DNA from: a virus
Direction: 5' to 3' (one strand)
IMG/VR virus record: IMGVR_UViG_3300043449_000843
Location: 1 to 64,000 of that record
Length of the DNA: 64,000 nucleotides
Each line of letters starts with the position of its first letter. The stretch's first letter is position 1. The notes below the pieces were generated by a model. It was not told the origin of the DNA. It made no database searches and worked only from the letters and a program-made list of their open reading frames with translations. Positions 3,521-54,360 of this stretch are shown here, in pieces. The translations under genes and the position numbers were made by a program.

Positions 3521-3531
3521 GGAGAACTACA

Positions 3532-5324: not shown

Positions 5325-5334
5325 GCCGACCAAC
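5303..5334. terminator. Hairpin spanning convergent gene ends (TTAA stop overlap)
   Basis: GTTGATCGACTTAA (5303-5316), loop TAAA, and TTAAGCCGACCAAC (5321-5334) form a stem of 14 positions with two A-C mismatches. The overlapping stop codons of the Nudix gene (plus) and the collagen-like fibre (minus) lie inside it on TTAA at 5321-5324. It could stop or stabilise transcripts from both sides. There is no long T tract, so intrinsic termination is uncertain. Confidence 0.5.
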
Positions 5335-31235: not shown

Positions 31236-31676
31236 ATGGCAACGGTAGGTTTTGATAACTTAAGATTAGGTCCGACTACTACAGAAGGACAACAAAAAAT
31301 ACTTACATCTAGAACCTATAGAGGTTTTAGCTCAGTAAATTCTTCTGTACGTAATACAATTTTATATGATCTTGAATTAATAAAACAAGATCTTATAAAT
31401 CACTTTCATATACGTAAAGGTGAAAAACTTGAAAATCCCGAATTTGGAACAATTATTTGGGATGCATTGTATGAACCGTTAACTGAACAATTGAAACAAG
31501 TTATAGTTAACGATGTAACAGATATAGTTAATTCAGATCCTAGAACACAAACAGTAAAAATTATTGTAACGCAAAAAGACAATGCTATACAGATAGAAGT
31601 AACACTGATATATTTGCCATATAATATACAGGATACTATGCAGTTTAGCTTTGATAAAAAGAACGGTCTAGCGTAA
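31236..31676 (+). CDS. gp25: Baseplate wedge protein gp25 (146 aa)
   Basis: The conserved core IKQDLINHFHIRKGEKLENPEFGTIIWDALYEP is the gp25 signature and includes the NPEFG turn and the hydrophobic helix that plugs into the sheath. The length is close to T4 (132 aa). gp25 belongs to a lysozyme-like-fold family without lytic activity and anchors the first sheath ring to the wedge. It lies between gp5 and gp6 with short gaps. Confidence 0.94.
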   Translation: MATVGFDNLRLGPTTTEGQQKILTSRTYRGFSSVNSSVRNTILYDLELIKQDLINHFHIRKGEKLENPEFGTIIWDALYEPLTEQLKQVIVNDVTDIVNSDPRTQTVKIIVTQKDNAIQIEVTLIYLPYNIQDTMQFSFDKKNGLA

Positions 31677-31735: not shown

Positions 31736-34700
31736 ATGTCAACAACCGGAAGGCAACAGAATCTATTTCTAGCTGAAGACTGGAAAAAAATATATCAAAC
31801 ATTTAGTAATGCAGATTTTTCAAGTTATGACTTTGAAAATCTACGTCGTGTTATGATACAATATCTAAGAGAAAAATATCCAGAAGATTTTAATGACTAT
31901 ATCGAATCAAGTGAATATCTTGCTCTTATAGATTTGTTTGCATTCTTAGGACAAAGTTTATCTTTCCGTATTGATTTGAATGCTCGTGAAAACTTTTTAG
32001 AGCTTGCTGAACGTCGTGAGAGTGTTTTACGTTTAGCTCAACTTATAAGTTATAATCCATCTAGAAATATTGCAGCTAATGGACTTTTAAAGGTTGATAA
32101 TATTTCTACAACAGAAGAAATATACGATGCTAACGGTAGAAATTTATCAAACTTGTCAGTTACCTGGAATGATAGTACTAACAGTAATTGGGCCGATCAG
32201 TTCACAAGAATAATGAATTCTGCAATGGTGGCAGAAAATTCTTTTGGAATTCCTGTTTCAAATGATGTTATTGGAAACATTTATTCAGAACAGTATAAGT
32301 TTAACACTACTAATGCAGGAATACCTTTATATAGTTTTAGTACAGTTGTTAATGGCACAAGTATGGATTTCGAAGCAGTTAGCACAATTATTAAAGATGG
32401 AATGATAACAGAAGAAACTCCTGCAAGAGGCAATAAGTTATCTATGATCTTTAGAAATGATTATAAAGGACTAGGAAGTATTAATACTGGTTGGTTTATG
32501 CATTTTAAACAAGGTAATCTTGTTTATAGAGAATTTACAAATAACAGTCCAACAACTAATGAAATTGTAAACATTAACGATGTAAATATTAACGACGATG
32601 ATGTTTGGCTATATGGGTTAGATTCACAAGGAAATGAATCATCTCTTTGGACGAAAGTAACTGCAATTACAGGTAATAACATCATTTATAATAGTCTTAA
32701 TAAGACCATAAGAAATATCTATCAAGTGCAGACTAGAGCAGGTGATACTATTTCTTTATTATTTGCTGATGGAATTTTTGGAAATTTACCAAAAGGAACA
32801 TTCCGTGTATATTATAGAACATCAAACGGGTTAACATTTTTTCTTAACCCTAAGGATATGAAAAGCGTTAATGTTAAAATTTCTTATATTTCTAAAAAAG
32901 GATCTAGTGAGTCACTTACTATTGGTATGTCTCTTAAAAGTGTAGTTACAAACGCTAGTGCAGCTGAATCAATAACTGATATCAAGAGACATGCTCCTTT
33001 AACTTATTACATTCAGAATAGAATGGTAACAGGAGAAGATTATAATCTAGCACCGTTGAGTGTGAGTCAGTCTATTGCAAAAATTAAGACTATAAACAGA
33101 ACATCTAGCGGTATTAGTAGAAATTTTGATCTAATTGATGCAAGTGGAAAGTATAGTTCTATTAATGTATTTTGTACAGATGGCATCATTTATAAAGAAA
33201 TGATTTATAACTCATTTACATTTACATATAGATCACGTACAGAAATTAGTGCAATTATTCAAAATCAGATACAGCCTCTAGTAACATCAAAGTTTATGAG
33301 AGATTTTTATTACGAAAAGTATAATAAAATTATTTTACAAGATGTAAACCCTCAGTTTATTCAAGCAACTAGTGCAGTTAACGAGTCAAGTGGATATATT
33401 GCTGATTTAGTAGACACATTACCACTTAAAGTTGGAAGTTATACAGCTAGTAGCTTAAAATATATAGAGCCAGGGGCACTTGTTAAATTTGTAGCTCCAA
33501 ACGGATTCTATTTTGATGCTAATAATAATTTAACAACCACTGAATCATCTATTACATCAACTAGTTTGTGGGCTAAAGTTGTCGCGGTTGCAGGAGACGG
33601 AACAGCAAGCGGGTATGGATTCTTAAGCTCGGGCTTTGGACCGATTGTTTTTGATCAAGTAATTCCGACATCGGCATTGGTTTATCAAATAATTCCAAAG
33701 TTTACAAGTACAATACCAGCAGATACCTTATCGTTAATTACTGAACTTATTTTTAATAATAAGAACTTTGGTTTACGATATGACCTTAACTATAGAATTT
33801 GGCAAGTTGTATATGATAGAAATCTAAACCTTTTAGACGCTTGGAGTTTAATTAAAGCAGCAGATAATACTGGTGAAAAGTTAGACAGTAGCTGGTTAGT
33901 AGCGTTTAATACAGATGGTATAACTTACACGGTAACCTATAGAGGTCTTGAGTATTATTTTGAATCAGTTTTAGAAAATAGATTTTACTTCGATGGAAGC
34001 AGAAAGATTTATGACATAACTACCGGTAAAGTAAAGAAAGACATGGTTTCTATATTGAAGTTTAACACTTTTCCTAATAGTTCTACAACATTAGGTAAAG
34101 ATTATCCTTTTGAGATAATTGATGTAGCGACCGAAATGGAAGGATATGCAAGTAGTAGAACAGTAAAAATAACCTTTGCTGATCGCGATGATGACGGCAC
34201 CGTTGATGATCCTGAATCGTTTAATGTAATTGTAGATGATTCTGTTGACAATCAAAATAGATTTGTATTTTTTGAAAAATATACCACAGAATCATATGTT
34301 GAAGATTATAGATATGTTGCAAACACAGAAAATAAATTTCTTATTTTTGAGTTAGAGACAGAAGTAACTAATCTTGCAGATTTTAATGATGGACAGTTAT
34401 TTTATTTTTACGGAGTTGATTTAGTTAAGAGATATGTTGCATCAGAACAGAAGTTAGTTATCGATACTAATCACTATGCAGCAATTGGAAGAAATAACAT
34501 TAACTTTTATTATCTTCACAATGCTGATCAAAGTTATAGAATCGATCCTAGTGCAAGTAATATAATGGATACATATATATTAACAAAGGATTATGATACT
34601 CAGTATCGTGCATGGATAGTAGGCAATATTACAGAAGAGCCTCTCCCTCCTAGCTCAACCGAATTGTTTTTAACATACGGCTCTGAGTTAAATCAAATTA

Positions 34701-35179
34701 AGAGTATAAGTGATGAAATCATTTATCATCCAGTAAAGTACAGGGTGTTATTTGGAAGAAATGCTTATAGTAGATTACAAGCATCTTTTAAGGTTGTAAA
34801 GAATAAAGAACAAGTTATTACTGACAATGAAGTTAAGGCACGCATTATTACAGCAATTAATCAATACTTTAGTGTTGATAATTGGGATTTTGGTGATACA
34901 TTCTATTTTACAGAATTATCAACATATGTAATGAACCAGTTGGTTCCATACATTACAACATTCTTAATTGTTCCTACTAATAGTGATCAAGTTTATGGTA
35001 GTTTACAGCAGATTACATCACAACCGAATGAGATTTTTATTAGCGGAGCAACAGTTAATGATATAGAAGTTATTGATGCAATAACAGCATCTAAAATCAA
35101 AGCTCCCGGGTATATTGTCACTTCTGATACAGTCGATATTAATACTACTTTATTACAAAGCGCAATTAGTAAACTTTAA
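31736..35179 (+). CDS. gp6: Baseplate wedge protein gp6 (1147 aa)
   Basis: The N-terminal ~130 residues contain FSSYDFENLRRVMIQYLREKYPEDF, LIDLFAFLGQSLSFRIDLNARENFL and RLAQLISYNPSRN, the typical gp6 start (a baseplate J-like core). gp6 forms the iris ring that controls baseplate opening. It is much longer than T4 gp6 (660 aa), with the extra length in beta-rich segments between ~560 and ~1000. A later conserved piece is YRVLFGRNAYSRLQASFKVVKN. It directly precedes the giant gene, as gp6 precedes gp7 in T4. Confidence 0.9.
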   Translation: MSTTGRQQNLFLAEDWKKIYQTFSNADFSSYDFENLRRVMIQYLREKYPEDFNDYIESSEYLALIDLFAFLGQSLSFRIDLNARENFLELAERRESVLRLAQLISYNPSRNIAANGLLKVDNISTTEEIYDANGRNLSNLSVTWNDSTNSNWADQFTRIMNSAMVAENSFGIPVSNDVIGNIYSEQYKFNTTNAGIPLYSFSTVVNGTSMDFEAVSTIIKDGMITEETPARGNKLSMIFRNDYKGLGSINTGWFMHFKQGNLVYREFTNNSPTTNEIVNINDVNINDDDVWLYGLDSQGNESSLWTKVTAITGNNIIYNSLNKTIRNIYQVQTRAGDTISLLFADGIFGNLPKGTFRVYYRTSNGLTFFLNPKDMKSVNVKISYISKKGSSESLTIGMSLKSVVTNASAAESITDIKRHAPLTYYIQNRMVTGEDYNLAPLSVSQSIAKIKTINRTSSGISRNFDLIDASGKYSSINVFCTDGIIYKEMIYNSFTFTYRSRTEISAIIQNQIQPLVTSKFMRDFYYEKYNKIILQDVNPQFIQATSAVNESSGYIADLVDTLPLKVGSYTASSLKYIEPGALVKFVAPNGFYFDANNNLTTTESSITSTSLWAKVVAVAGDGTASGYGFLSSGFGPIVFDQVIPTSALVYQIIPKFTSTIPADTLSLITELIFNNKNFGLRYDLNYRIWQVVYDRNLNLLDAWSLIKAADNTGEKLDSSWLVAFNTDGITYTVTYRGLEYYFESVLENRFYFDGSRKIYDITTGKVKKDMVSILKFNTFPNSSTTLGKDYPFEIIDVATEMEGYASSRTVKITFADRDDDGTVDDPESFNVIVDDSVDNQNRFVFFEKYTTESYVEDYRYVANTENKFLIFELETEVTNLADFNDGQLFYFYGVDLVKRYVASEQKLVIDTNHYAAIGRNNINFYYLHNADQSYRIDPSASNIMDTYILTKDYDTQYRAWIVGNITEEPLPPSSTELFLTYGSELNQIKSISDEIIYHPVKYRVLFGRNAYSRLQASFKVVKNKEQVITDNEVKARIITAINQYFSVDNWDFGDTFYFTELSTYVMNQLVPYITTFLIVPTNSDQVYGSLQQITSQPNEIFISGATVNDIEVIDAITASKIKAPGYIVTSDTVDINTTLLQSAISKL

Positions 35180-35197: not shown

Positions 35198-38100
35198 ATG
35201 GAACAAGACGATTTTAATGAGCTTCCCCTACCGCAAGGTCCTGAGAACCAAATTAAAAGACAAACTTTTAGACACCTACCAAATTTCTTTAGAACTGATT
35301 CAAATAAGAAATTTTTAGGTGGAACAGTAGACGTTATTACACAACCAGGCACCTTAACACGTCTTAGCTCATATATTGGTCGTAGAGACATTCCGAATTA
35401 TTCATTTGATGATGTTTACATTCAAGAAACATCTACACCTAGACAGTATTATCAGCTAGAGCCAGCATTTGTTAATGAGGATCCAGTAACAGGTAAAAAT
35501 AGATGGTATGGTGATTATATTGATTATATTAATAGTCTTAAATATTTTGGCGCAGACGTTGTAAATCATAGTAAACTTAATAAACAAGAATCATACACTT
35601 GGAATCCTCATATAGATTGGGACAAGTTCACAAACTATCCAGAGTATTATTGGATAGCTAGTGGACCAGATCCGGTAACAATCTACGGCCAAATGGAAAA
35701 TATTGTATCAGAATTTACTGTTACTTCTATTGATCAGATTGATAATAGGGGATATATTTTTACTCCAGATGGGTTAACAGTTAACCCGAGATTAACATTG
35801 TATCGTGGAGTAACATATAAGTTTAATATTAATACTCCTCATATGAAGTTTGCTATTAAAACAGAAAATGATCCAAGCGACGGTTATTTTTATAATATCG
35901 GCGTTAGTGCAAGAAATGTTGAAAAGGGTATAGTTACTTTTACAGTTCCTTATGAAGCACCAGATCTTTTGTATTATATGGATAATACTATTAGAGAAAA
36001 TCTTGGTATTTCAGATTCAGTTGTAGGAATGATCGATATTAAAGATATCAAGGAAGCTTCTGCATTAAATGTAGAGACTGAAATATTAGGTAAGAAAAAT
36101 TTTAAAAGTAGTAACGGTATAGAGTTTATTAATGGCTTAAAGGTAAAATTTGCAGGTAATGTTACACCTTCCAAGTATGCTAAAGGTTTTTGGTATGTTG
36201 AAGGGGTAGGTAACAGGATCGTTTTAATCAATACATTAGATTTAGAAGCCCCTGCGACATTTATTAAAGGTATTGATGTTCCCTGGGATGATCAAGGCTT
36301 TGACACATTACCTTTTGAAAATGCTGATAACTATCCTTTAACTAAAGATTATCTAGTAATTAATAGAGCTTCGCGAGATCGTAATAACTGGGCTAGAACC
36401 AATCGCTGGTTTCATAGAACAGTATTGGAAGTTACAGCTAATGCCAATGGACAAATTGCTAACCTAGATCAATCAACTAGAGCAAATCGTCCTATTATTG
36501 AGTTTGAACCTGATCTCAAATTATTCAATCATGGATATTTTGCTAAGCCAGATGTTGATTTAGTAGATACAGTTACAACTGATGTGTTCTCTACTATTGA
36601 AGGAAGTGCAGGATATATTGTTGATGGTGAGCAACTACTACCAGGTTATAGAGTATTGTTTACTGCTGATCCTGATATAACAGTACAAGGAAGAATTTTT
36701 GAAGTAAAAAGAATTACAAATGTTTACGAAAATGTAAACATCGAGACCCCTGTTGTTTCAATATCTTCTTTTAAAAATATAATAAAAGTTGCTAATACTT
36801 TTGGATTTAGACCCGGTACTAAGGTTCAATTTATTGGTAATGTAGCTGGAGGGTTGTCATCTACTTTAGAATATTATGTTATTAAGGAAAATTTTAATTC
36901 TACTAGTTTAAGTGTAAGTTTAGTCAAGGGTGGTGACGCTGTAGTGCTTACAGATGCAATTAATTTAAGTATGAAGATGATTGCTATAGGGGTTGCACGT
37001 AGAAAGTCACAGCTAACTTTACAGGAAGTAAAAGATACTGATCCTGTTGAAGGACAAATAGCATATGTAACTAAGGGAAAGAATTATAGAGGAACATCAT
37101 TTTATTATCAAGATGGTAAGTGGCATCAAGCTCAGAAGAAAACTGATATAAATCAAGCACCAATGTTTGATCTGTTTGATGAGTCATTAGTAAGTTACTC
37201 TGATAAAACAGTTTATCCTTTTAGTACATTTAAAGGAACACCGCTTTTTAATTACAAAGTAAGTGAAGATAGAAATCAAAAGCCAGATAGTGAGCTTGGT
37301 TTTCCATTAGTATATCGTGCAATTGATAACGTCGGTGATATTGAATTTGAGTTTAGCTTACAAAAGGGATCGTGGTCATATGAATTAAACAACGAGTTAA
37401 CTACAGTTAATTCATATGAGGGATATCTACGTAAGTGGAATTTAGATAATAACTTTTCTTATACTAATGGTTGGGTAAAAACTGATAGACCCTCAGAGCA
37501 GAATGTAGTAAGAGTCTTAAAAGTAGAGTCACAAACAAACTTAATTCCAGTTGATGTATTTGATGATACACCTATATTGTATGCTTTAGAACAGGCTAAT
37601 CATATTCTAAATGGTAATCAGTTTTATATGGCAATTCAGGATAATTCCGGTAGAGAGTTATCTGATACTGATTATTGGTTGCCGTATCAGTTTAAAGATC
37701 AGTATAAAGAGGATTTTGATTTTGATACAAAGTATGCACAAAGAGACATAGTTAAGTATCGTAATCTATATTACATTGCACTTGAAGATGTTAAAGGACA
37801 GCTTCCTACTAACACTGATTTTTGGAAGTTAATATTCCAAGGATATAAGTTTAAGGGTGAATTTAATAGACTTGGAACATATCAAGTTGACGATATTGTT
37901 ACGTATAACAGTTATACATATATTGCAATAAGAGATAACAATGGACAGAATGAACCTACTGACGTAATTTACTGGAAATTGTTAGTAAAAGGTCCTAGTA
38001 ATTTTCAAGGTGAGTTTAATCTTGCTCCTAGTTCTTATGCAGGTGAATTTAGCCTAGGTAAAAATTATTTTGTTAACAACGTTGTTAATTACAACAACAC

Positions 38101-41100
38101 TTTTTATATTGCAGTAAGAAATAGTGCAAACATTGATGTAACAAATACAAATTATTGGGAAGCATTACTTCCTGGAAGTTATAATCCAGAAACAGGGTTA
38201 AAGAAAACTGTAACTTATAAAGCTAAAGACATTGTAAGTTATGGATTATATCTTTATCTTTCAATTGGAACAGAAAACACAGGTAATTTGCCAACTGATA
38301 CAAATTATTGGATGCAATTATCTTCTGGATCAACTTTTCCAGTTTATTATAATACAGGAGCAATGTATCATACAGGACAAATTGTAGCTCTTGATGCAAG
38401 ACCAAAGATTGATTATAGAATACGTGTATATGTTAATGATGTTAAAAGAACAGATCTATCACTTAATATAGTTGATGGAGTTGCTTATATTACTTTTGAC
38501 ACACCTTTATCTCCAGGAGACAAGGTAGTTTATAAGATACGTTCTATATCAAATAAAAATGTAAAAGGTTATTATGAAATACCATTAAATTGGCAAAACA
38601 ATCCGTTTAACGAAACACTAGATACATTTTCGTTTGGTGAAGTTCTTGATCATACAAAAACTATAGTAGAAAATTCTCCAGGATTTACAGGAAAATTTCC
38701 TGGAATTAATAATCTATCAAACTTAGGGCCAATATCACAGTACGGCCGTAAGTTTATGCAGCACACTGGACCGATGAGTTTATCTGCATTTTTAATGATT
38801 GATAAAAAAGTTAATATCATTAAGGCATTACAATGGTGTAGCCGTGAATATACACAATTCAAAAAAGATATTGTATTTAGAATGCAAACATCAGGTTATG
38901 ATGGAACACCTAGAGACATTGCTGATCAACTTTTACAAGATTATTCAAAATCAAAGAACTTAGGAAAGTCGGCATTTTATTTCTCAGACATGGTGCCTTA
39001 CTCAGCATCCTCAGTAAGAGAGTATTCTGTTGATGATCCTAGATTCCCAATTTTTTCTATTGATAGTTTATTCAATCCATTAGAACATACTAGAAGAGCA
39101 ATACTTGTATATCTTAATGAAGTACAATTACTTTATGGAAAAGATTACGAATTTGATACAGAAGATGCATTTATTAAAATAATTGCACCTATTTACGAAA
39201 ATGACATTATTTTAATTAAAGATTATAATACAACTAACGGGTGCTATGTTCCTTTAACTCCGTCTAAATTAGGTTTATATCCATTGTACGAACCTATGAT
39301 TTATCTTGATACTACATATAGAAAGATAGTCCTTAACGACGATGGAACCGAGTCAACAGTTGTTGAAAGTCGTAAAGTAATACAAGGTCACGACGGTAGT
39401 CTCTTTACTGCTTATAACGATTATAGAGATGAAGTATTATTAGAAATTGAAAAAAGAATTTTTAATAACACTAAAGTTCATTATGATCCAGAAATTTTTG
39501 ATGTCAATGATGTAATGACTGGATATTACCGTCGAACAGATTTTACTAAAGCAGAAATTAATGATATTCTTATAACTGAATTCTTAAGATGGAATCAAAT
39601 TCCAAGTCTTGATTTTAATTCACCTGAGTTAAGAATACCTGTTCCGGGTATCGATCTTGAAAAAACTCCTCCTAGATATAAATGGGTAGATGGAGATTCG
39701 TTTACTTACAATTATAATAAATCATATGCTCCGAATGGTGTAGAAGAATTGCACGGTTATTGGAGAGGTGTGTACAAGTACTTCTATGATACAGATCGCC
39801 CTCATACACATCCTTGGGAAATGCAAGGATTTAGTATTAAGCCAATGTGGTGGGACGAAGTTTATGGCCTCGCTCCATACACTTGTGATAATGTTATTAT
39901 GTGGGATGCAATTGAAAAGGGACAGATTGGTGATCCAAATAATCCAAGAATAAACACAAAGTATGCTCGTCCAGGATTAAGTTTATACATTCCGGTCGAT
40001 AGTGAAGGTAATTTATTAAGTCCTATAGAAAGCGGATTAGCATATAACTTCTCAAAAGTTAATTCTATAGGAAGGTACACATTTGGTGATCAAGCTCCAG
40101 TAGAAACAGCATGGCGCCAGTCTAGCGAGTATCCTTTTGCAGTTATGATTGTAATGTGTACATTAAGAGGTGCCGAATTTATCGGTAAAATGTGGGATAG
40201 ATTTACAATTAAACGTGATATTACAGGACAAATCTATTCAACAGTTACAAAGAAAAAATTAAACACAGCTGAGCTACCTTTTGCTAATGAATTGCAAGAA
40301 GATGGAACTAGGACTTTTACTAGCGGTTTAGCTAACATCATTGATGAATACGTTTTGATTTATCAAAACATTGATTATGATTATTACAAAAAATTAATTA
40401 GAGGTTTAGATGTTAAGCTAAGGTATCGTGTTAGCGGATTTACTAGTAAAGAAAAAATAAAGGTTTTACTAGATAGTCGTACACCTAATTCTTCCGGTAC
40501 AGTATTTTTACCTTCAGAAAATTATAAAATATTTTATAACAAGAGTGCTCCTGTAGAAACTGTAACATATAGTGGAGTTATTATAGAAAAATCAGATTAC
40601 GGATATGCTGTTACAGGATACGATTCTTTAAAAAGTGTATTTGAAATATTTCCAGCAAGACTATCAGCATCTGATGTTTTAATTAATGTTGGCGGAATAT
40701 CAGATAGTTATGTTGATTGGGCACCAGGACAGTATTATGTATCTGGGCAGCTTGTTAAGATACAATCAAATTATTATAGAGCATTGCTAAATCACACATC
40801 TAGTATTTCGGTTGGTGAGGATATTGATGCTAAAAAGTGGCAAAAATTACAGTCATTACCTATTACAGGAGGGCGTGATGCATATGTAAGAACTAAGTTT
40901 ATTAATGTTCCTGTAAAAGTACCATATGGAACGGTGTTTACTGATATTCAATCTGTAGTTGATTTCTTATTAGGGTACCAAGCAAGGCTTAGAGATTGGG
41001 GGTTTCAATTTGATGACTTTAGTAATGATTTAAATTTACCTCTTAATTGGTTAACGAGTGCTAAAGAGTTTATGTTTTGGACTTTACAAAATTGGGTCAA

Positions 41101-44100
41101 AGGATCTGTTATTACACTAAGTCCTGCTGCTAATAATTTAAAGTTTAAACCTACGATCAATGCATCTGTTGACACATTAGACAGTGATTTTTATGAGTAT
41201 TCAATTTTTAAAGCCGACGGCTCCCCGTTAAAAACAGATCTTACAAATGTCTACAGAGAAGAAAATGGCTTTACAATTAAACCGTCAAGTGATACACAAG
41301 AAGGCATTTTTCATTTAAGAACCAGTCTTGTATACCAAGAGCATGTAATTCTTTTTGATAATGTGTCTATTTTTAATGATGTTGTATATGATGTAGTGCC
41401 AGGATATAGACAAGGTCGCTTAAAGTTAATTGGGTTTAAGACTAATAATTGGGACGGAAGTTATTATACTCCAGGATTTATGTATGATAATGCTGAAATA
41501 TTCGAATGGCAGCCTAATACTGATTATAATATTGGTGATGTAGTTGAGTATCAAAGTTTTTATTATACTGCTATAGCTAAAGCAAATGGAACAACAGATT
41601 TTGATTATACTAAATGGAGTAGGTTATCAGAAAAACCAGAACCAAAGTTAGAACCAAATCTCGATTATAGAATTGATCAATTCCGTGATTTTTATAGTCT
41701 TGAATCTAGCAATTTTGATTCAAATCAACAAGCATTAGCAAGACACTTAACTGGCTACCAACCTAGACAGTATCTTGAAGATATCATTATTGATGATGTT
41801 TCTCAATACAAATTCTATCAAGGGTTCATTAAGGAAAAAGGCACACTCAATAGCATAACAAAACTTTTTGATGCTCTTCGTACTAGTGGTTATAGTAATA
41901 TAGATGTTAAAGAAGAGTGGGCATTTAAGGTTAGTGATTTTGGAGCATCAGATGCTTATGTAGAATTAGAATTTGTTTTAGATGAAACTAAATTCCGTCA
42001 TAATCCTCAAAATGTTGTTTTAACATTAGCTTCTACTGAGTTTGATGATTCGGCTGTTTATAATATAACTGTTAATGACACAGCCAAAAAAACAATTAGT
42101 TATGATGCTAATCCCTTTGTTACTAAGGCTTTAGATTTTACAGCAAAGAATTATGGGGTCTTTAAGTACCGTACTGCTGGATACGTTAACCCAGCAAATG
42201 TTGATCATATAGTATATGATGAAAATGCATTACTTAACTATGACTTAACTTTGTTAAAACATAAAGATAAAATATGGATAGGAAATACACCTAATGGTGA
42301 ATGGAATGTTTTAGAATATTATAATACTAGGGCATTAATCACTAGTTGGGAAAGAATTAATAATGTTATAAACCTAAGTGTTAGTATAATGCCAAATTTA
42401 CTAATTGGAGATCTCATATCAATAACTAACTTAGAATTGTTAAATGGTATTTACAAAGTAGCAGGGATTTATTCTAATCTTATACAGGTTTATACTAATA
42501 ATCCATCGATTGGTACAGTAAATTTAGATAGTACACACGGTGTACTCTTTAAGTTTGAACAGGTAAGATATAGATCAGCTTCTGCTATTACAGCTAATCA
42601 TTATAGTGACTTAAACATCACAGGTGAGTGTTTATGGATAGACCAAGACTTTAACAATAGATGGAAAGTGTTAGAAAATACTAACCCATTTAACGCTGGG
42701 AAATTATCACCACCAAATTTTTTATTATATACAAATTCGTCGAAAGGTAGTGAAGTTAAAATCAGTGGTAATGGAAAATATTTGTATGTTAGTGCTATAG
42801 GTATAGGAACCGGTAATGTCTTGGTTTATACTAGACCTAATAATTTATCAGAATGGGTATTTTTACAGACACTATCTATGCCTGCAGGGTTTACTTCTGG
42901 AATCAGTAGCACAGAAAAATTTGGGTATAGTATTGATGTATCATATGATGCTCGTTTATTAGTTATAAGTGCACCGGATGTTAGTGCTATTAAAAGTTTG
43001 TATGCAGGGGAGTTTGATCCTAATTCAAATTATGCACCAACAATGGTTGTTAGATATTTGAATCAGCTCTGGCAAGCTAAAAATTACATATATGGTGATG
43101 GATCTACAATTGATATATTCTCACAAGATTGGGAGTTACTTAGAAGTATCTGTCCTGTTTACGAAGGAGCAGCTGATAGCGGATTAACTAAACAAGGAGC
43201 AGTATTTGTTTACGTACTTGATCCAGGTAGAAGAATTTATGAAAGAGATACTTTAGAATTACGTAACGAGTACAATGATCTTGTTACAAGAGAGCAAATT
43301 ATTTGTTCTTATCATCCTTTAGAAAATGAGAGATTCGGAACTAAAGTAAGATTAGCTCAGTATGGAAATGAATATTGGTTGTATGTAAGTAGTGAATATG
43401 TTGAGAAAATAGGAGCTGTACAAGTCTTTATAAGAAGAGTAACCGGTACTTGGGAATACAACTTAGATCAGCAATACCTTAATTTTGATTATTCATCTAT
43501 AATTTATAACTCGCCTGCACTTATAAACTCAAATAGTTTGTATGGGTATGATGTAACAGTAGGTGGAATAGATAATAATAGGGTTGCAATCTCAGCGCCA
43601 TTTCTCAATGGCGGAGCAGTTTATGTGTTTAACAAAAATGGAGGTGTATTTAATTTAATAAAAATAATTGATCAATATACTATTGCTGACCTTAATATAA
43701 ATTCTTTAAACAATTATCAAATAAACAATTTAGATTATTTTGGTTATAGTATTTCTATGAAAGGTGAGATGTTGTTTGTATCATCACCAAACAATGATAC
43801 AAAAAATACAAATGTTGGAGTTGTTTATAGGTTTAATAGTATATTTGTTCTGGAACAAATTATTGTACCACCGTTAGCAGTTCAGAATGAAAGATTTGGT
43901 ACTAAGATTGATACTGATATTAGCCAGAATATATTAGTCGTTACATCTGCAGGTGGTAATACTATTATGACCACAGCATTTGATACATATATTGACAGAG
44001 CAGTCTTTACAAACGATTCAACTAGAAATTATGTTCTTGATACAAATAGTTTAAAAGCAGTTAATGCTACAACATTTGACGCAGAAGCAACAGCTTTTTA

Positions 44101-47100
44101 TGATCGTGTTGCATATACAGGAGCAGCATACACGTATGATAATCTAGACAGAAATTACATTTATGGTAATAAATTAACACCTGTGGATCAGTTAGTAACT
44201 AACGATAACTTTGGTTCAGCAATTTCTGTAGTTAAAGATAGCATTGTAGTTGGTGCTCCACAACGCCAGAACGGAGCCTTTATACCAGGTATTGTATATA
44301 CATTTGATTTTAATAGTCAAAGTTGGTTAGAAATAGCATCACAAGGCGAAGTTGTAGATGTTTCTAAATTTAAGAAAGCATTTGTTTATAATACATCTAC
44401 AAATAAATTAGTTGATAATTTAGATATTATAGATCCTCTAAAAGGATATATTGCTGGTCCAGCTGATCAAGAAATAATGTATCAGACTATGCGCGACCCG
44501 GCAGTATATACGTACACAGCCGCTAGTATAGTTAAAACAGACCAGTCTGATCCATGGCTAGACGAACATGTTGGCGAGCTTTGGTGGGATCTATCAAGAG
44601 TTAAGTGGATTTGGTATGAGCAGGGTAATAGTAGCTATAGAAATTCCTATTGGAATGTTTTATTTCCAGGATCTAGTATTGATATTTACGAATGGACAGA
44701 AACTACACTATTACCTAGTGAGTGGCTAGCAGCAGCAACATCTAATGATGCATTATTGAAAGGTATCAGCGGAACACCGATATACATAAACGATCTTACA
44801 TATAGCACTAAGCAAAAGTATGATACAGCGACTGGATATCTAACTACTTACTATTATTATTGGGTTAAAAATAAAACTACAGTTCCTAGAGTAAAGTTTA
44901 GAAGTATATCAGCAGCCGATGTTGCACAATTAATATTTGACCCATCAGCAGTAGGTTACAAATATATTGCTGTTACAGGATCTAACAGTTTATCATTAGT
45001 TAATATTAAACCAGATATATATCAAAGAGATATAAACCTTAATATACAATATTATCAAGTAGATAATGATAATTTAATAGTTCACAGAGAATATGCATTA
45101 ATAGCTGCAAATGATGCAACGTCTATTATTCCGGCTATTATTGAAAATAAATGGATAGACAGCCTTTGCGGTGATAATATATATGGACAGATAGTTCCGG
45201 ATCCGAGGTTGAGTCTACAACAAAGATATGGTACAAGAAATGAGCCAAGGCAAGGGTGGTTCGCTAATAGAAGAGAAGCATTAAAACAATATATTGAGTA
45301 TTTAAACTCAATATTACTTGATAATCAGATTGTAGATACAACTAACTTCGAAAAGTTAAATGAAGAGGAGTTACCTCCTACAATAGACTCAGGTAAAATT
45401 GATCAGATTGTAGATATTGTTGACGATTTAAGATTCATTGGTACGCTGAAAATTAAGACAGCAAAAGCAATACCTGTAATCAAAGACGGTCAAATTTTAG
45501 TTGTAATTGTTACAGATCCAGGATACGGATACAAAGTTGCACCTACAATTAAGTTAATGGGAACTGGTACAGGTGCAACTTTAAAATCTGTAATTAATGA
45601 AAATGGATCAATCATAAGAATTGACGTAATACAAAGAGGTAGTGGATACGATTCATACTCAGCTACTATTTCTATTAGGAACTATTCAGTATTAGTTAAG
45701 GTCGACGATGATTCATTTGGCAGTTGGAGTGTATATGATTGGAGTGGTGATGTAACTAAAAATTGGTATCGTATTAAGACACAAGGGTGGAATGTTAAAC
45801 GATACTGGAATTATGCAGATTGGTATGCAATAGGATATAATGCAGAATCAAAAGTAGGATTTACTGTTGATCAAACAGTTAATCTGGAAGGGTTAAACTC
45901 ACAAGTAGGTGATCTAGTTAAGGTTAATAATGTAGGGGGACATTGGTTACTACTTCGTAGGATTTCTGAATTAGAAGATCCAAATTATACAGTTACATAC
46001 GAAGTTGTTGGTAAGCAAAACGCTACAATTCAATTTTCAAAAGACTTATATAATATGTATTATGGGTATGATTCGTTGTATAGTTATGATAAAAATTTAT
46101 ATGACCAAGGGCCAGGAATCGAGTTAAGAATTATATTAAATGCTGTTCGTGATAATATTTTAACTGACGAGCTTAGAATTGAATATATTAATATATTCTT
46201 TAATAGTGTTAAGTATGCATTAACAGAACATATGTTTGTTGATTGGGTATTTAAATCTAGTTTTATAAAAATTAATCATAATGTTGGAACTTTGAAACAA
46301 AGAATTACATATCAAAGTGATATGCTTTCAAGTTATCAAAAGTATATTGAAGAAGTTAAACCTTATAAGACTAAGATTAGAGAATTTACTGATACTTATA
46401 ATTATGTTGATCCTTCAAACCAACAAACAACAGACTTTGATTTATTCTCGTATTATAATCCTAGCTCAGGGTACATTGAACGTACATCTCTTCGTTCAGC
46501 TTACATTGATTCATATCCGTGGAAGAATTGGCTCGATAATTACCTATATGAAGTTGATGAAATAATAATTCATGATCAAGGTAATGGATATGTCTCTATT
46601 CCTAAAGTTATAATTAGTGGCGACGGCCGTGATGCTTCTGCTACAGCTTATATTGCTAAAGGTAAAGTAATTAAGATTGTTGTAGATAACCCAGGATATG
46701 GATATTCCTATTCACCATCTATTTTTATTAGTGGCGGCAATGGTGACGATGATAATAATAGAGCTAAAGCAGTAGCAATAATAGGAAATCATAAAGTACG
46801 CACTAACTTAATCGGCATGAAGTATGATAGAATATCACTTTCGTATACAGTTACTGATTTTACATATACAGATACGTTCTCAGGAACAGGAGTTGATCGT
46901 AAATTTAAATTAACGTATGCACCGGATATTAAAAAAGTTAATTTTAATATTCTAGTTAATGATGTGGAAATTTACGGATCACTGTTTGATGTTTCGATTG
47001 TTCAAACAATGCATGACACATATTCTGCATTGGAAGGATATGTAATATTCAAAGATGCACCAACAACTGGTGTTAATAATGTTGTAATTTCATATAAAAA

Positions 47101-49873
47101 GAATATCGCATTATTCAACGCAGCAGACAGAATTAATGATGCATATGAGCCAACTGTTGGACAATATGGTAAAGAATTAGGCCAACTAATGGCAGGAGTT
47201 GATTACGGTGGAGTTCAAGTAACTAGTATCGATTTTGATGTTGGTGGCGGCTGGGATGTATTACCTTGGGATGCAGCATCCTGGGACAATGTTCTTAGCA
47301 CAAATGACGATTTTGTAGTTGTAGTTGACGGAAGCACGAGAACTTTTGCACTTCCATATATTCCAGCAGCTGGTGTTATTATTAACGTCTATGTTAATAA
47401 TAAGAGAATTGATGATCCTTATTATAATGTATATGATGGAACTACAGTTCAACCTAATGGATTAATCGAAGCACCACTTGGACGTTTTATGAACTCGTTT
47501 GTTGGTGATAGTATTCATAATGAAATTACTATTCCTCTAAATTATAATTTAAATGATAATGATTATATCACTTTCCGTAAGAGTACAAGTGATGGAACTA
47601 TATTGCCTACTGATCAAAGTCTAATAGATTCTTTTGTTCAAGGTGGTGATTTAGCATATACTACAGCCCAAGGAGTTAAGGCCGAAGAAATTATCATAGA
47701 TGGCGACAGTCTAATTACCTCAGATACTAGTCATGGCCCAGAAGAATTAGTTCAAGGATCGGTAGTTGATACATTAGATTTTAAAGTATATCACACACCA
47801 TCCGACGGTGGACCAAGCATTTATGTTTATAATCTACTAGGTAACGGGGTTGATAGTACTTTCTCACTTACACAATTACCAGAAACTATAACAGGAACAT
47901 TGTTAATTGTGAACAATGTTGCTTTAGAGCTTACTGTTGATTATCAAAACAAGACATTTACAATTTATCGATTTAACTATGATATAAATGAGCTTGAACT
48001 ATATGTACCACCGGTTGATTCTCAAATTGCTATAATAAGCATTGATACTGCCGGGTATGATATAACTGAAAAAACTACATTTATAGGCGACGGAAGTAGT
48101 ATTGAATACTTAACATCTTCAAACTGGAATAATGGAGATGTTAGTGGTTTCATTACTATTAACGGTGAGCCTGTTGAATTTGATATTAAAGAAAGTAATG
48201 ATGCATATGACGCAATAGGTAATGTTGTTATTGAATTTAGACAACCCCCCGCTGATGGCGATCTAGTTGTAGTAATGCTCTTTAGAGGTAAAATACAGAA
48301 GTGGAGCGAAGTAAAAGCACAGTATATTCCCGTTGTTGCCGATACATATGTATATTCTTTAAATAGACTTCCTGCTAACTTAGGACCTTTAAGTGCAAAT
48401 ACACTTGTTATAGCTGATACAATAACAGCTACAGAGTTCTTACAGTCACCTGATTTAAAATATTACACATATGACGGTACAAATACATTGTTTATTAATG
48501 ATCTTCGTTATATATCTAATTCAATAAAACCAGGTGATTTAAATGTTTATGTTAATGGTATTAAAATAGTACCGATTAGAGATTATCTCTTTGATACAGT
48601 TCAAATGACTGTAACAATGAATCCTGATATTGTTTCTTTAGGTGATGAAATTACAATAGAAATTCTTTATCTAGCAGATTATTGGATAGATAGCGGATCA
48701 ATAGTTATCAGTAGAAAGAATTATAGTATAGTTAATCAAAAGACTTTAATAGTTAATACTTTCACTAATCACGATGTTTTAAAAACTAAGAGAAAGACAT
48801 TTGGATTTAGCTTTGCTATTGGATATGATGTACAGCCTTATGATGTAACACAGTATGATCTAACTAATGGAACATATAATACTAGTGGCATATTTGATTT
48901 ACCGAGAAAAATTGCATCAAAGAGTGGTGTTTTAGTAATTCTAAACAGAAAGATTTTAACTCCAAATGTTGATTATGTTGTTTTAGACAATCTTACACAG
49001 ATTAGAGTTATTCTTCCAGATCAATTAAGCAGCAGCAGCTATTTAGAAGTTGTTACAACTAATGACAAAGTTGTCAAACCTAGTTATGGCTTTAGAGTCT
49101 TTAAAGACATGCTTAATAGAACTAGTTATAAGAGACTAGATCGTATTAAAACAACTAAATTAAGACAAGATTTAACATACCTCGATACACACATAGTTGT
49201 TTATGATGGGTCAGTGTTGCCAGTTCCAGTTAAGGAAACAAATCTTCCAGGCATAATCTTTATTAACGGAGAAAGAATTGAATATTTCGTTAAGGAAGGA
49301 AATACTCTAAGTCAACTTCGTAGAGGAACGTTAGGAACAGGCACTAAAAATTATTATCCTCAAGGAACTATGGTAGAAAACATGGGTGCTGAAGAGACTG
49401 TACCATATAGTGATGAAGAAAATAAGTCAACATTCTATGGTGATGGTACTACACAAATATTCTACATTGATATGATTCCACAGGTTGCTTATAACACTGT
49501 AGCTGATGATAGTACTGTTGATACTAATTGGTATAGAGAAACTATTCCTTGGACTTATGGACAGTGTGATCAAATTGAAGTGTTTGTTGCTGGTAAGAGA
49601 TTAAGTAAAGCCCCTTATAAACTTTATGATCAAGCATTAGGACAAGATAGTTACAACGGTAATGGTGACAAATTTGTAGAAGCAGATTTTTCAGTTACTG
49701 GTCTTGATTACGGTGTAAGACTTACTAAGGCGCCCGAGCCTGGTGAATTAGTAGTAATAGTATATAAGACTGGTAGATTGTGGCAAAACGTTAATGAAAA
49801 TGCATCATTAGTTCATAGTGATTCTGATATAGCAAAATTCTTAACAGCAGCGCAGGTGAATTTGCCTAAATAA
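35198..49873 (+). CDS. Giant baseplate/tail-fibre structural protein in the gp7 position (4891 aa)
   Basis: One uninterrupted frame of 14.7 kb. The start (FNELPLPQGPENQIKRQTFRHLPNFFRT) and YTWNPHIDWDKFTNYPEYYW are segments I recall from very large structural proteins of marine T4-like phages encoded after gp6. The visible architecture includes CBM5/12-like modules near residues 845-1041 (four in a row), 1847, 2109 and 2611. A helical EKGTLNSITKLFDALR segment recalls the T4 gp7 region. Seven FG-GAP-like blades span ~2515-3045 (FGYSI...LVISAP and similar). Two GYGY...P.I modules lie at ~3426-3495 and ~3783-3850. A series of GDG...F.L repeats fills ~3891-4868. No separate gp7, gp8 or gp10 is present, so it may replace several wedge proteins. 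Confidence 0.8.
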   Translation: MEQDDFNELPLPQGPENQIKRQTFRHLPNFFRTDSNKKFLGGTVDVITQPGTLTRLSSYIGRRDIPNYSFDDVYIQETSTPRQYYQLEPAFVNEDPVTGKNRWYGDYIDYINSLKYFGADVVNHSKLNKQESYTWNPHIDWDKFTNYPEYYWIASGPDPVTIYGQMENIVSEFTVTSIDQIDNRGYIFTPDGLTVNPRLTLYRGVTYKFNINTPHMKFAIKTENDPSDGYFYNIGVSARNVEKGIVTFTVPYEAPDLLYYMDNTIRENLGISDSVVGMIDIKDIKEASALNVETEILGKKNFKSSNGIEFINGLKVKFAGNVTPSKYAKGFWYVEGVGNRIVLINTLDLEAPATFIKGIDVPWDDQGFDTLPFENADNYPLTKDYLVINRASRDRNNWARTNRWFHRTVLEVTANANGQIANLDQSTRANRPIIEFEPDLKLFNHGYFAKPDVDLVDTVTTDVFSTIEGSAGYIVDGEQLLPGYRVLFTADPDITVQGRIFEVKRITNVYENVNIETPVVSISSFKNIIKVANTFGFRPGTKVQFIGNVAGGLSSTLEYYVIKENFNSTSLSVSLVKGGDAVVLTDAINLSMKMIAIGVARRKSQLTLQEVKDTDPVEGQIAYVTKGKNYRGTSFYYQDGKWHQAQKKTDINQAPMFDLFDESLVSYSDKTVYPFSTFKGTPLFNYKVSEDRNQKPDSELGFPLVYRAIDNVGDIEFEFSLQKGSWSYELNNELTTVNSYEGYLRKWNLDNNFSYTNGWVKTDRPSEQNVVRVLKVESQTNLIPVDVFDDTPILYALEQANHILNGNQFYMAIQDNSGRELSDTDYWLPYQFKDQYKEDFDFDTKYAQRDIVKYRNLYYIALEDVKGQLPTNTDFWKLIFQGYKFKGEFNRLGTYQVDDIVTYNSYTYIAIRDNNGQNEPTDVIYWKLLVKGPSNFQGEFNLAPSSYAGEFSLGKNYFVNNVVNYNNTFYIAVRNSANIDVTNTNYWEALLPGSYNPETGLKKTVTYKAKDIVSYGLYLYLSIGTENTGNLPTDTNYWMQLSSGSTFPVYYNTGAMYHTGQIVALDARPKIDYRIRVYVNDVKRTDLSLNIVDGVAYITFDTPLSPGDKVVYKIRSISNKNVKGYYEIPLNWQNNPFNETLDTFSFGEVLDHTKTIVENSPGFTGKFPGINNLSNLGPISQYGRKFMQHTGPMSLSAFLMIDKKVNIIKALQWCSREYTQFKKDIVFRMQTSGYDGTPRDIADQLLQDYSKSKNLGKSAFYFSDMVPYSASSVREYSVDDPRFPIFSIDSLFNPLEHTRRAILVYLNEVQLLYGKDYEFDTEDAFIKIIAPIYENDIILIKDYNTTNGCYVPLTPSKLGLYPLYEPMIYLDTTYRKIVLNDDGTESTVVESRKVIQGHDGSLFTAYNDYRDEVLLEIEKRIFNNTKVHYDPEIFDVNDVMTGYYRRTDFTKAEINDILITEFLRWNQIPSLDFNSPELRIPVPGIDLEKTPPRYKWVDGDSFTYNYNKSYAPNGVEELHGYWRGVYKYFYDTDRPHTHPWEMQGFSIKPMWWDEVYGLAPYTCDNVIMWDAIEKGQIGDPNNPRINTKYARPGLSLYIPVDSEGNLLSPIESGLAYNFSKVNSIGRYTFGDQAPVETAWRQSSEYPFAVMIVMCTLRGAEFIGKMWDRFTIKRDITGQIYSTVTKKKLNTAELPFANELQEDGTRTFTSGLANIIDEYVLIYQNIDYDYYKKLIRGLDVKLRYRVSGFTSKEKIKVLLDSRTPNSSGTVFLPSENYKIFYNKSAPVETVTYSGVIIEKSDYGYAVTGYDSLKSVFEIFPARLSASDVLINVGGISDSYVDWAPGQYYVSGQLVKIQSNYYRALLNHTSSISVGEDIDAKKWQKLQSLPITGGRDAYVRTKFINVPVKVPYGTVFTDIQSVVDFLLGYQARLRDWGFQFDDFSNDLNLPLNWLTSAKEFMFWTLQNWVKGSVITLSPAANNLKFKPTINASVDTLDSDFYEYSIFKADGSPLKTDLTNVYREENGFTIKPSSDTQEGIFHLRTSLVYQEHVILFDNVSIFNDVVYDVVPGYRQGRLKLIGFKTNNWDGSYYTPGFMYDNAEIFEWQPNTDYNIGDVVEYQSFYYTAIAKANGTTDFDYTKWSRLSEKPEPKLEPNLDYRIDQFRDFYSLESSNFDSNQQALARHLTGYQPRQYLEDIIIDDVSQYKFYQGFIKEKGTLNSITKLFDALRTSGYSNIDVKEEWAFKVSDFGASDAYVELEFVLDETKFRHNPQNVVLTLASTEFDDSAVYNITVNDTAKKTISYDANPFVTKALDFTAKNYGVFKYRTAGYVNPANVDHIVYDENALLNYDLTLLKHKDKIWIGNTPNGEWNVLEYYNTRALITSWERINNVINLSVSIMPNLLIGDLISITNLELLNGIYKVAGIYSNLIQVYTNNPSIGTVNLDSTHGVLFKFEQVRYRSASAITANHYSDLNITGECLWIDQDFNNRWKVLENTNPFNAGKLSPPNFLLYTNSSKGSEVKISGNGKYLYVSAIGIGTGNVLVYTRPNNLSEWVFLQTLSMPAGFTSGISSTEKFGYSIDVSYDARLLVISAPDVSAIKSLYAGEFDPNSNYAPTMVVRYLNQLWQAKNYIYGDGSTIDIFSQDWELLRSICPVYEGAADSGLTKQGAVFVYVLDPGRRIYERDTLELRNEYNDLVTREQIICSYHPLENERFGTKVRLAQYGNEYWLYVSSEYVEKIGAVQVFIRRVTGTWEYNLDQQYLNFDYSSIIYNSPALINSNSLYGYDVTVGGIDNNRVAISAPFLNGGAVYVFNKNGGVFNLIKIIDQYTIADLNINSLNNYQINNLDYFGYSISMKGEMLFVSSPNNDTKNTNVGVVYRFNSIFVLEQIIVPPLAVQNERFGTKIDTDISQNILVVTSAGGNTIMTTAFDTYIDRAVFTNDSTRNYVLDTNSLKAVNATTFDAEATAFYDRVAYTGAAYTYDNLDRNYIYGNKLTPVDQLVTNDNFGSAISVVKDSIVVGAPQRQNGAFIPGIVYTFDFNSQSWLEIASQGEVVDVSKFKKAFVYNTSTNKLVDNLDIIDPLKGYIAGPADQEIMYQTMRDPAVYTYTAASIVKTDQSDPWLDEHVGELWWDLSRVKWIWYEQGNSSYRNSYWNVLFPGSSIDIYEWTETTLLPSEWLAAATSNDALLKGISGTPIYINDLTYSTKQKYDTATGYLTTYYYYWVKNKTTVPRVKFRSISAADVAQLIFDPSAVGYKYIAVTGSNSLSLVNIKPDIYQRDINLNIQYYQVDNDNLIVHREYALIAANDATSIIPAIIENKWIDSLCGDNIYGQIVPDPRLSLQQRYGTRNEPRQGWFANRREALKQYIEYLNSILLDNQIVDTTNFEKLNEEELPPTIDSGKIDQIVDIVDDLRFIGTLKIKTAKAIPVIKDGQILVVIVTDPGYGYKVAPTIKLMGTGTGATLKSVINENGSIIRIDVIQRGSGYDSYSATISIRNYSVLVKVDDDSFGSWSVYDWSGDVTKNWYRIKTQGWNVKRYWNYADWYAIGYNAESKVGFTVDQTVNLEGLNSQVGDLVKVNNVGGHWLLLRRISELEDPNYTVTYEVVGKQNATIQFSKDLYNMYYGYDSLYSYDKNLYDQGPGIELRIILNAVRDNILTDELRIEYINIFFNSVKYALTEHMFVDWVFKSSFIKINHNVGTLKQRITYQSDMLSSYQKYIEEVKPYKTKIREFTDTYNYVDPSNQQTTDFDLFSYYNPSSGYIERTSLRSAYIDSYPWKNWLDNYLYEVDEIIIHDQGNGYVSIPKVIISGDGRDASATAYIAKGKVIKIVVDNPGYGYSYSPSIFISGGNGDDDNNRAKAVAIIGNHKVRTNLIGMKYDRISLSYTVTDFTYTDTFSGTGVDRKFKLTYAPDIKKVNFNILVNDVEIYGSLFDVSIVQTMHDTYSALEGYVIFKDAPTTGVNNVVISYKKNIALFNAADRINDAYEPTVGQYGKELGQLMAGVDYGGVQVTSIDFDVGGGWDVLPWDAASWDNVLSTNDDFVVVVDGSTRTFALPYIPAAGVIINVYVNNKRIDDPYYNVYDGTTVQPNGLIEAPLGRFMNSFVGDSIHNEITIPLNYNLNDNDYITFRKSTSDGTILPTDQSLIDSFVQGGDLAYTTAQGVKAEEIIIDGDSLITSDTSHGPEELVQGSVVDTLDFKVYHTPSDGGPSIYVYNLLGNGVDSTFSLTQLPETITGTLLIVNNVALELTVDYQNKTFTIYRFNYDINELELYVPPVDSQIAIISIDTAGYDITEKTTFIGDGSSIEYLTSSNWNNGDVSGFITINGEPVEFDIKESNDAYDAIGNVVIEFRQPPADGDLVVVMLFRGKIQKWSEVKAQYIPVVADTYVYSLNRLPANLGPLSANTLVIADTITATEFLQSPDLKYYTYDGTNTLFINDLRYISNSIKPGDLNVYVNGIKIVPIRDYLFDTVQMTVTMNPDIVSLGDEITIEILYLADYWIDSGSIVISRKNYSIVNQKTLIVNTFTNHDVLKTKRKTFGFSFAIGYDVQPYDVTQYDLTNGTYNTSGIFDLPRKIASKSGVLVILNRKILTPNVDYVVLDNLTQIRVILPDQLSSSSYLEVVTTNDKVVKPSYGFRVFKDMLNRTSYKRLDRIKTTKLRQDLTYLDTHIVVYDGSVLPVPVKETNLPGIIFINGERIEYFVKEGNTLSQLRRGTLGTGTKNYYPQGTMVENMGAEETVPYSDEENKSTFYGDGTTQIFYIDMIPQVAYNTVADDSTVDTNWYRETIPWTYGQCDQIEVFVAGKRLSKAPYKLYDQALGQDSYNGNGDKFVEADFSVTGLDYGVRLTKAPEPGELVVIVYKTGRLWQNVNENASLVHSDSDIAKFLTAAQVNLPK

Positions 49874-49890
49874 ATAAAGTGAGTTATAAA

Positions 49891-50562
49891 ATGACAAAAG
49901 ACACCAAACCCGTTAGGAAAACTAAAATACAGGATGACAAAATGACCACAAAGCCGGACGAAAAAGGTCCCTTTCATATCGAAGGACATATAAAAATATT
50001 TGATCCTGAATCAGGACACGTTTATATCAATAAGAGAAATGCTATTCACTATGAAAATATGAGTGTAGCATTAGCAGAAAGCCTTGCTAATTCAGGCCAA
50101 GGAACTATTTTCGAAATGGCGTTTGGTAATGGTGGGACTATTGTTGATCCTACAGGTATTATTACATATCTAACACCTAACACAGTTGGTACTAACAGTA
50201 CTTTATATAACGAAACTTATTCGAAAGTGGTTGATGACCGTAATGTTGCTAATGTTGATCCTACTCGTAATAAGTTAGAAACTAGGCACATTACCGGTAC
50301 AAGTTATACAGATATTGTAGTTTCTTGTTTATTAGATTATGGTGAGCCATCAGGACAGGAAGCATTTGATAACGTAGCAAGTATTAATAGTGAATTTGTT
50401 TTTGATGAGTTAGGATTAAGAGGATACGATCCAAATGCAACAAATTACTCAGGAAAACTATTAACGCACGTTATTTTTCATCCAGTTCAGAAGAGCTTGA
50501 ACAGATTAATACAAATAGATTACACAGTAAGAATACAAAGTTTATCAGGATTTAACGGATAA
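49891..50562 (+). CDS. Virion structural protein of T4-like marine phages (223 aa)
   Basis: After a Lys-rich leader come GHIKIFDPESGHVYINKRNA, TIFEMAFGNGGTIVDPTGIITY and VSCLLDYGEPSGQEAFDN, ending with LLTHVIFHPVQKSLNRLIQIDYTVRIQ. I recall the same pattern from a structural protein between the giant gene and the fibre genes in marine T4-like phages. The exact place in the particle is unknown. ATG 49891 is used; a GTG at 49879 is in frame but without a ribosome-binding site. Its stop overlaps the next ATG (TAATG). Confidence 0.7.
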   Translation: MTKDTKPVRKTKIQDDKMTTKPDEKGPFHIEGHIKIFDPESGHVYINKRNAIHYENMSVALAESLANSGQGTIFEMAFGNGGTIVDPTGIITYLTPNTVGTNSTLYNETYSKVVDDRNVANVDPTRNKLETRHITGTSYTDIVVSCLLDYGEPSGQEAFDNVASINSEFVFDELGLRGYDPNATNYSGKLLTHVIFHPVQKSLNRLIQIDYTVRIQSLSGFNG

Positions 50563-54319: not shown

Positions 54320-54325
54320 TAAATA
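54318..54325 (+). promoter_or_regulatory. Candidate T4-type late promoter (GATAAATA)
   Basis: GATAAATA overlaps the stop codon of the second fibre gene (TGATAAATA) and lies 36 bases before the ATG of the third, with AGGAG in between. It could give the third fibre and downstream genes their own late transcript. Confidence 0.5.
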
Positions 54326-54360
54326 CTTGCAACGCACCATGAGGACCAGGAGCTTCTAGA

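Follow-up and report, generated by a model that had tools for sequence, protein, structure and literature searches.

A 4,891-residue protein in the gp7 place of a T4-superfamily jumbo phage is a probable baseplate wedge subunit with adhesin modules

Wedges of contractile tails are built on a (gp6)2–gp7 unit, and the stretch of DNA analysed here raises the question of what fills the place of gp7 in a jumbo-phage relative of T4. This window covers 64,000 of the 66,015 bases of an IMG/VR record; the genome is represented by a 66-kb fragment. Directly after a gp6-type gene lies one plus-strand open reading frame (ORF; 35198–49873) encoding 4,891 residues from an ATG start. Sequence comparisons lead us to a reading that we hold at a probability of roughly 0.6: the giant protein would be a greatly enlarged gp7/TfrII-type baseplate wedge protein of a T4-superfamily jumbo phage, carrying its own adhesins.

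The frame runs unbroken over 4,891 codons with no internal stop, and its third-codon GC content (0.18–0.20) is uniform from end to end and similar to that of adjacent genes. Because this uniformity is accompanied by frames of the same length in relatives, an assembly fusion and a chance frame can both be set aside. Across its core the protein belongs with PHROG 10938 ('virion structural protein', E = 2.1e-295), which all 11 family members scanned match as well. More than 100 environmental relatives were sampled, at sizes of 3,013–5,612 aa; one search of viral contigs gave 43 loci, another at least 597 confirmed relatives. With frames reaching 5,612 aa, the giant is a medium-sized member of its group; size as such was dropped as a novelty, phrog_701 alone having 6,136 positions.

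Gene order in the window is gp53–(755 aa)–gp5–gp25–gp6–giant, comprising, on the plus strand, a gp53-type wedge protein (25605–25919; PF11246, phrog_7145), a gp5-type hub/spike protein (28203–31220; phrog_13211, E = 3.5e-40), a gp25-type sheath initiator (31236–31676) and a 1,147-residue gp6/TfrI-type wedge protein directly upstream of the giant (31736–35179; phrog_219, E = 5.7e-22; phrog_10646, E = 1e-287). The slot after gp6 holds gp7 in T4 and Vibrio K491, and in cyanophage S-PM2 a 3,048-residue protein that is followed by gp8. In P2, with gene order V–W–J–I, gpI comes after J, the counterpart of the giant's slot. Downstream, also on the plus strand, are a 227-residue partner (49879–50562; phrog_11259) and three fibre genes of 697, 554 and 512 aa (50562–52655, 52655–54319 and 54361–55899, together 50562–55899). 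The partner is kept in about 60 jumbo-phage records, including some where it does not adjoin the giant; in CBB it lies away from the locus, and its counterpart there was found in virions (2 peptides). The fibre genes have a common N-terminal domain of ~90 aa (phrog_14394/15511/8309), and the first also has a Collar domain. Elsewhere in the window, a minus-strand gene (5321–7183) encodes a 620-residue collagen-like protein with GPT/GPV repeats (tandem repeats of 18–72 bases) that matches tail-fibre families.

Isolates were compared through the GenBank phage collection and environmental relatives through IMG/VR. A homologue directly follows gp6 in PA5oct (3,857 aa), Atu_ph07 (4,449), Phosso (4,555), 121Q (3,323), Vibrio 2.275.O (3,771) and CBB (3,340); SCTP-2 gp140 (3,807 aa) is preceded by a large hypothetical protein. 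The place was examined in full, annotation included, in PA5oct, Atu_ph07, Phosso, 121Q and CBB. The isolate proteins of PHROG 10938 (PA5oct gp355, Atu_ph07 gp180, 121Q gp582, CBB gp236, phAPEC6 gp245 and AP-J-162 ORF58) share the core family with the giant, at 22–36% identity in blocks, and like it form one huge chain placed after gp6. They differ in lacking the propeller described below, in having at most one significant PF02839-like unit by the family model, and in length (3,323–4,555 aa in those examined). CBB_236 was found by mass spectrometry in CBB virions with 21 peptides, which gives presence and not position (PMC5259590). phAPEC6 gp245 was likewise found in virions (381.9 kDa, 17 peptides), next to gp244, a 'baseplate wedge', its own position not being given by the proteomics (PMC7247149); from size and place it is probably the counterpart of 121Q gp582. 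The record of PA5oct gp355 carries an 'ESI-MS/MS' note of virion detection, and in AP-J-162 a 4,455-residue 'structural protein' adjoins a 1,198-residue wedge protein (PMC11242549). In the phage records examined, proteins at this place are labelled only 'virion structural protein' or hypothetical protein. Three claims of the original prediction thus hold: an intact 4,891-residue ORF, by its lack of internal stops, even third-codon GC and equally long frames in relatives; a structural protein, by the homologues detected in CBB, phAPEC6 and PA5oct virions; and a position in place of gp7, by the gene order conserved with T4, Vibrio K491, P2 and S-PM2.

An alignment of 29 relatives resolves conserved blocks at aa 1–525, 600–775, 1085–2414 and 3055–3765, with variable stretches besides. 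All features of the giant given here lie on the plus strand. Its N-terminal core (aa 1–775; 35198–37522) is found in isolates and environmental relatives alike, and conservation is highest in the central core (aa 1085–2414; 38450–42439). The alignment also delimits a core stretch after the propeller (aa 3055–3420; 44360–45457), and a further one (aa 3530–3765; 45785–46492) carries the pattern 'DWVFK.SF ... KPY.TKIR'. Profile searches of the PDB with the N-core, C-core and C-terminal profiles returned no useful relative.

Set among these core pieces are CBM5/12-like units. Pfam CBM_5_12 (PF02839) matches the giant at E = 1.3e-5, its 25.5 bits falling just under the cut-off of 26.2, and matches 10 of 11 family members at E < 0.01 (best 9.8e-13). 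A family-trained model, run with reversed sequences as control, finds eight units. Five form a tandem cassette (aa 800–1045; 37595–38332) with units at aa 806–827, 844–878, 894–929, 955–990 and 1006–1041; two stand alone, at aa 1846–1884 (40733–40849) and at aa 2107–2143 (41516–41626), the latter the best of the eight; and one lies within propeller repeat 2 (aa 2609–2648; 43022–43141; iE 1.8e-5 in a single-protein search). Profile self-comparison identifies the cassette (aa 802–1069) as a strong internal repeat (E = 9e-21). The stretch aa 776–1080 measures 305 aa in the giant, ~250 in two environmental relatives (L013 and L014), 0–32 in the other environmental relatives and 25–95 in isolates; judged by these lengths, the cassette is a recent insert. 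The CBM profile matches the chitin-binding module of chitinase A1 (1ed7, E = 0.004), with which it shares an aromatic core pattern; the giant's units differ from that module in their length of about 35–40 aa. Another weak CBM5/12 match (E = 0.001) lies at window 2588–2656 (+), in a structural-protein ORF (2000–3520).

The second adhesin-type element is an FG-GAP/integrin-alpha-type β-propeller of seven repeats (aa 2500–3050; 42695–44347). Pfam FG-GAP_2 matches the giant above its cut-off (E = 1.6e-11); PF13517 (FG-GAP_3) gave no match. In a single-protein search, the family-trained blade model detects six units within aa 2517–3043 (iE 3e-11 to 1e-8); the seventh is weak in the giant (aa 2898–2922, iE 1e-3), and close relatives have seven clear blades. 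With reversed sequences, no blade match fell below 0.5. The region is a strong internal repeat by profile self-comparison (E about 1e-21). In a PDB profile search the aligned propeller region matches the solved integrin alpha-4 propeller (E = 8e-7), with other integrin alphas next; the single sequence gave no PDB match, and the alignment was needed to reach the integrins. On the strength of the alpha-4 match we regard the assignment of a predicted propeller fold as firm at the profile level. Alongside its seven repeats and profile match, this phage propeller differs from those of integrin alphas in having a CBM unit in blade 2 and in lacking DxDxDG calcium-binding loops, none of which was found by a motif check of aa 2500–3050. 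FG-GAP_2-type repeats can do without such loops.

Across relatives, the propeller stretch (aa 2390–3060) varies from 671 aa in the giant to 108–260 aa in CBB, 121Q, Vibrio and PA5oct, and to more than 1,300 aa in some others. A tree built from the central core is divided by a long branch with full support: every row with at least three clear blades falls on one side of it, and the isolates, the Rak2-like set and three environmental contigs, none with blades, fall on the other. Twelve environmental rows on the tree lack a clear propeller; all but one of these contigs stop short of it or break off inside it, and the exception, L119, shows two clear blades. The tree split and the cut contigs together make the propeller the mark of one large uncultured clade, which is abundant in viral metagenomes. 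The propeller is absent from all isolates of this family that were compared, and the GenBank phage collection yielded no cultured member of the clade. Either a gain of the propeller in this clade or its loss across the branch would fit the tree, according to where the root is placed. Cultured phages gave a single, weak match to the propeller (E = 0.003), which falls in another protein, a hypothetical one, of Phosso (L003, PV764938.1, 48743–49339).

C-terminal to the propeller are two GYGY pairs (aa 3442/3481 and 3795/3833), in modules at aa 3415–3510 (45440–45727) and aa 3775–3870 (46520–46807). A GYGY module is also present in cyanophage gp8-family profiles. Matches of relatives to phrog_438 (the gp8 family) and phrog_708 fall on GYGY-type modules, and so does the GYGY profile match to S-PM2 gp8; by its occurrence in other proteins, GYGY is a mobile module. 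The variable C-terminal stretch (aa 3900–4640; 46895–49117) is followed by a domain with the pattern 'NGERIEYF...RRGTLGT' (aa 4636–4731; 49103–49390) that is common to the cyanophage protein in the gp7 place. On these modules the original prediction fared well overall. Its count of at least seven CBM5/12 units plus one in blade 2 agrees with the eight found, including the insertion in the second blade; its seven-blade region at 42741–44330 corresponds to 42695–44347, with six clear repeats and one weak; and its GYGY modules are the two pairs. Of its two Pfam-type assignments, FG-GAP clears the cut-off (as FG-GAP_2) and CBM5/12 falls narrowly below it. The long C-terminal repeat series that it described shrinks to a weak self-match of aa 4201–4326 with 4283–4411 (E about 1e-5), confined to aa 4201–4411.

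A link to known wedge proteins comes from the central core, in a KGT motif region (aa 2185–2235; 41750–41902) that is present in six of six isolates checked. By hhalign, aa 2205–2231 (FYQGFIKEKGTLNSITKLFDAL plus flanks) aligns with residues 74–97 of P2 gpI (HCHKGTIGAIRRVVEPLG) and with residues 193–217 of S-PM2 p084 (DFYRAKGTDQSIKFIFNTLI). The gpI profile was built from a diverse sequence set, the near-identical P2 gpI set being unfit for a profile. The same stretch aligns with T4 gp7 734–755 (DFYSTKGIEASYKFLFKVLY), a match that is not significant alone. Column-shuffled profiles of the giant reached the real score in 0 of 250 cases against gpI, 1 of 250 against p084 and 105 of 250 against T4 gp7; in 5 of 250, the best match lay within five residues of gp7 734. 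When gpI was compared with 53 windows along the giant, the top two both contained the aa 2205–2231 stretch. Independently, p084 174–214 aligns with T4 gp7 701–755 (E = 7e-4), the same place as the giant's alignment, and a second, collinear match joins p084 7–42 to the gp7 helical domain. P2 gpI aligns with gp7 in the same register, again without significance. No core-bundle helices were located beside the KGT motif. Pfam Tail_P2_I (PF09684) matches P2 only, and neither the window record nor T4 nor any of the jumbo genomes gives a hit; it is a weak test, since it also missed T4 gp7. This short motif of about 25 residues is moderate evidence that the giant may be a TfrII (gp7/gpI) subunit.

P2 gpI, XM1 gp17 and T4 gp7 share with the giant the slot after gp6/J and the KGT region. 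They differ in size (176, 242 and 1,032 aa, against 4,891) and have otherwise no detectable similarity, and the giant lacks the Pfam domains of T4 gp7. S-PM2 p084 (3,048 aa) has the place after gp6, the KGT region, GYGY modules and the RGTLGT domain (p084 44–122 with giant aa 4636–4713; hhalign E = 3e-7) in common with the giant, but its parts come in a different order, it has no CBM or propeller match in the comparisons made, and it is otherwise unrelated. S-PM2 contains two further giant virion genes (L185, 759–9002 and 13492–23508) of 2,747 and 3,338 aa, one annotated 'Virulence Associated protein'. The giant ORF of another relative (L044, aa 3857–3991) matches p084 aa 740–875 at 48% identity over 140 columns; this module, common to a freshwater-type and a marine cyanophage giant, suggests module exchange.

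Apart from the short KGT-region alignment, T4 gp7, gp8, gp9 and gp10 have no sequence match to any part of the giant. For gp7, Pfam, PHROGs and hhalign gave no phrog_964, Gp7_helical, Gp7_5th or Gp7_6th match in the giant; for gp8, PF09215 and hhalign gave none, nor did Pfam and PHROG scans of 11 members; for gp10, PF07880, PF23618, PF22670, PF21939 and hhalign gave none. Window gp6 still detects T4 gp6 (E = 2e-4), so the reach of the method is limited at such a distance. One single-sequence BLAST candidate (CBB 787–852 with gp7 285–352, best E 0.005) was not upheld by profiles. Given that the window derives from a 66-kb fragment, absence of gp7, gp8 and gp10 within it says little. A search that was positive for T4 found neither gp7 nor gp8 in recognisable form in seven jumbo-phage genome records, and the gp9/gp10 N-terminal domain gave only sub-cut-off matches, in two of them; the original statement that there is no separate gp7, gp8 or gp10 therefore extends, at the sequence level, to those seven. 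Cyanophages, unlike these jumbo genomes, keep a recognisable gp8. A core list of T4-like phages gives gp7 and gp10 as core of the non-cyanophage members only, a precedent for gp7 replaced by something unrecognisable (Sullivan et al. 2010, PMC3037559).

Could these missing proteins be fused in one chain, as originally proposed? No separate gp7 or gp8 can be detected in the seven genome records, the gp9/gp10 domain there stays below cut-off, and the gene can indeed come in pieces. In one 578-kb virus record (G010) the family is represented by two ORFs, one of 3,275 aa corresponding to window aa 20–3325 and one of 991 aa that matches window aa 3498–3782 and 4543–4757, so that the break falls in the stretch of the first GYGY module and the 'DWVFK.SF' core lies on a separate protein. 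Between them is a 1,156-residue ORF (L177, 14082–17552) with a tail-fibre-like score and no relation to the giant; gaps of 14 and 32 bases separate the three ORFs, and a gp6 homologue precedes them. The pieces are, however, halves of one family and not gp7 and gp8: the C-terminal core can work on a separate chain, and the split supports modularity rather than a gp7/gp8 fusion. Neither hhalign nor the Pfam and PHROG scans of 11 members produced a gp8- or gp10-like stretch, and the phrog_438 and S-PM2 gp8 matches sit on GYGY-type modules. Since nothing of gp8 or gp10, and nothing of T4 gp7 beyond the KGT region, is detectable in the giant, a gp7–gp8–gp10 fusion is unsupported and scarcely credible. 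What survives of the proposed wedge and fibre in one chain is a wedge-type core, itself conserved, into which adhesins have been inserted.

The G010 arrangement also bears on whether the giant is a polyprotein that the prohead protease of the phage, or some other protease, divides into several proteins of the virion. Structural proteins are processed in other giant phages, and G010 demonstrates that the halves can exist as separate chains. Its break is nevertheless a single case, and relatives keep one ORF of up to 5,612 aa; we consider such processing very unlikely. A different objection is that the giant belongs to a tail-fibre or peripheral network on the baseplate and that the true gp7 is short and unrecognised. 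The gpI/gp7 link spans only about 25 residues, the CBM, FG-GAP and GYGY modules resemble adhesins, a gp7-type protein can be very small (XM1 gp17 has 242 aa; PMC10457771), and about 60 jumbo-phage records keep the adjoining 227-residue gene. Yet the giant's core is more conserved than its adhesin parts and stays after gp6 in very distant phages, the part common to all is the KGT region and not the adhesins, and the 227-residue protein has no gp7/gpI match in Pfam or PHROGs and sits off-locus in CBB. We judge this peripheral placement unlikely.

Under the preferred reading, a gp7/TfrII-type wedge protein, the conserved core (aa 1–775, 1085–2414 and 3055–3765) would be expected beside gp6 in the wedge, in six copies per tail, with aa ~2185–2235 as the counterpart of the P2 gpI/T4 gp7 region just past the core bundle. 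The inserts between the core pieces (the CBM5/12 cassette, the single CBM units and the seven-repeat integrin-type propeller) would be host-recognition modules, projecting from the baseplate towards the cell-surface glycans or proteins that they would bind, and each wedge would thereby have adhesins of its own; the three downstream fibre genes would add further receptor-binding proteins. gp7 orthologues do carry host-binding parts, since two segments of the 242-residue orthologue XM1 gp17 bind the tail spike, a receptor-binding protein (PMC10457771), and opening of the T4 baseplate is accompanied by a swivelling of gp7 (PMC3004832). It is conceivable, if somewhat doubtful, that in a large clade of uncultured jumbo T4-relatives the integrin-type propeller and the CBM units are the main device for receptor binding, made part of the gp7/TfrII subunit itself; receptor contact might then pull the contraction trigger directly, with no separate fibre-adaptor chain in between.

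If the giant is gp7/TfrII, this would explain why no recognisable gp7 is seen in jumbo and marine T4-relatives. The placement would give cryo-EM of 121Q, CBB or PA5oct a specific prediction, and the split gene of G010 marks where the chain can be cut. In the propeller clade, the insertion of host-binding modules into the scaffold of a contraction machine could then be put to the test.
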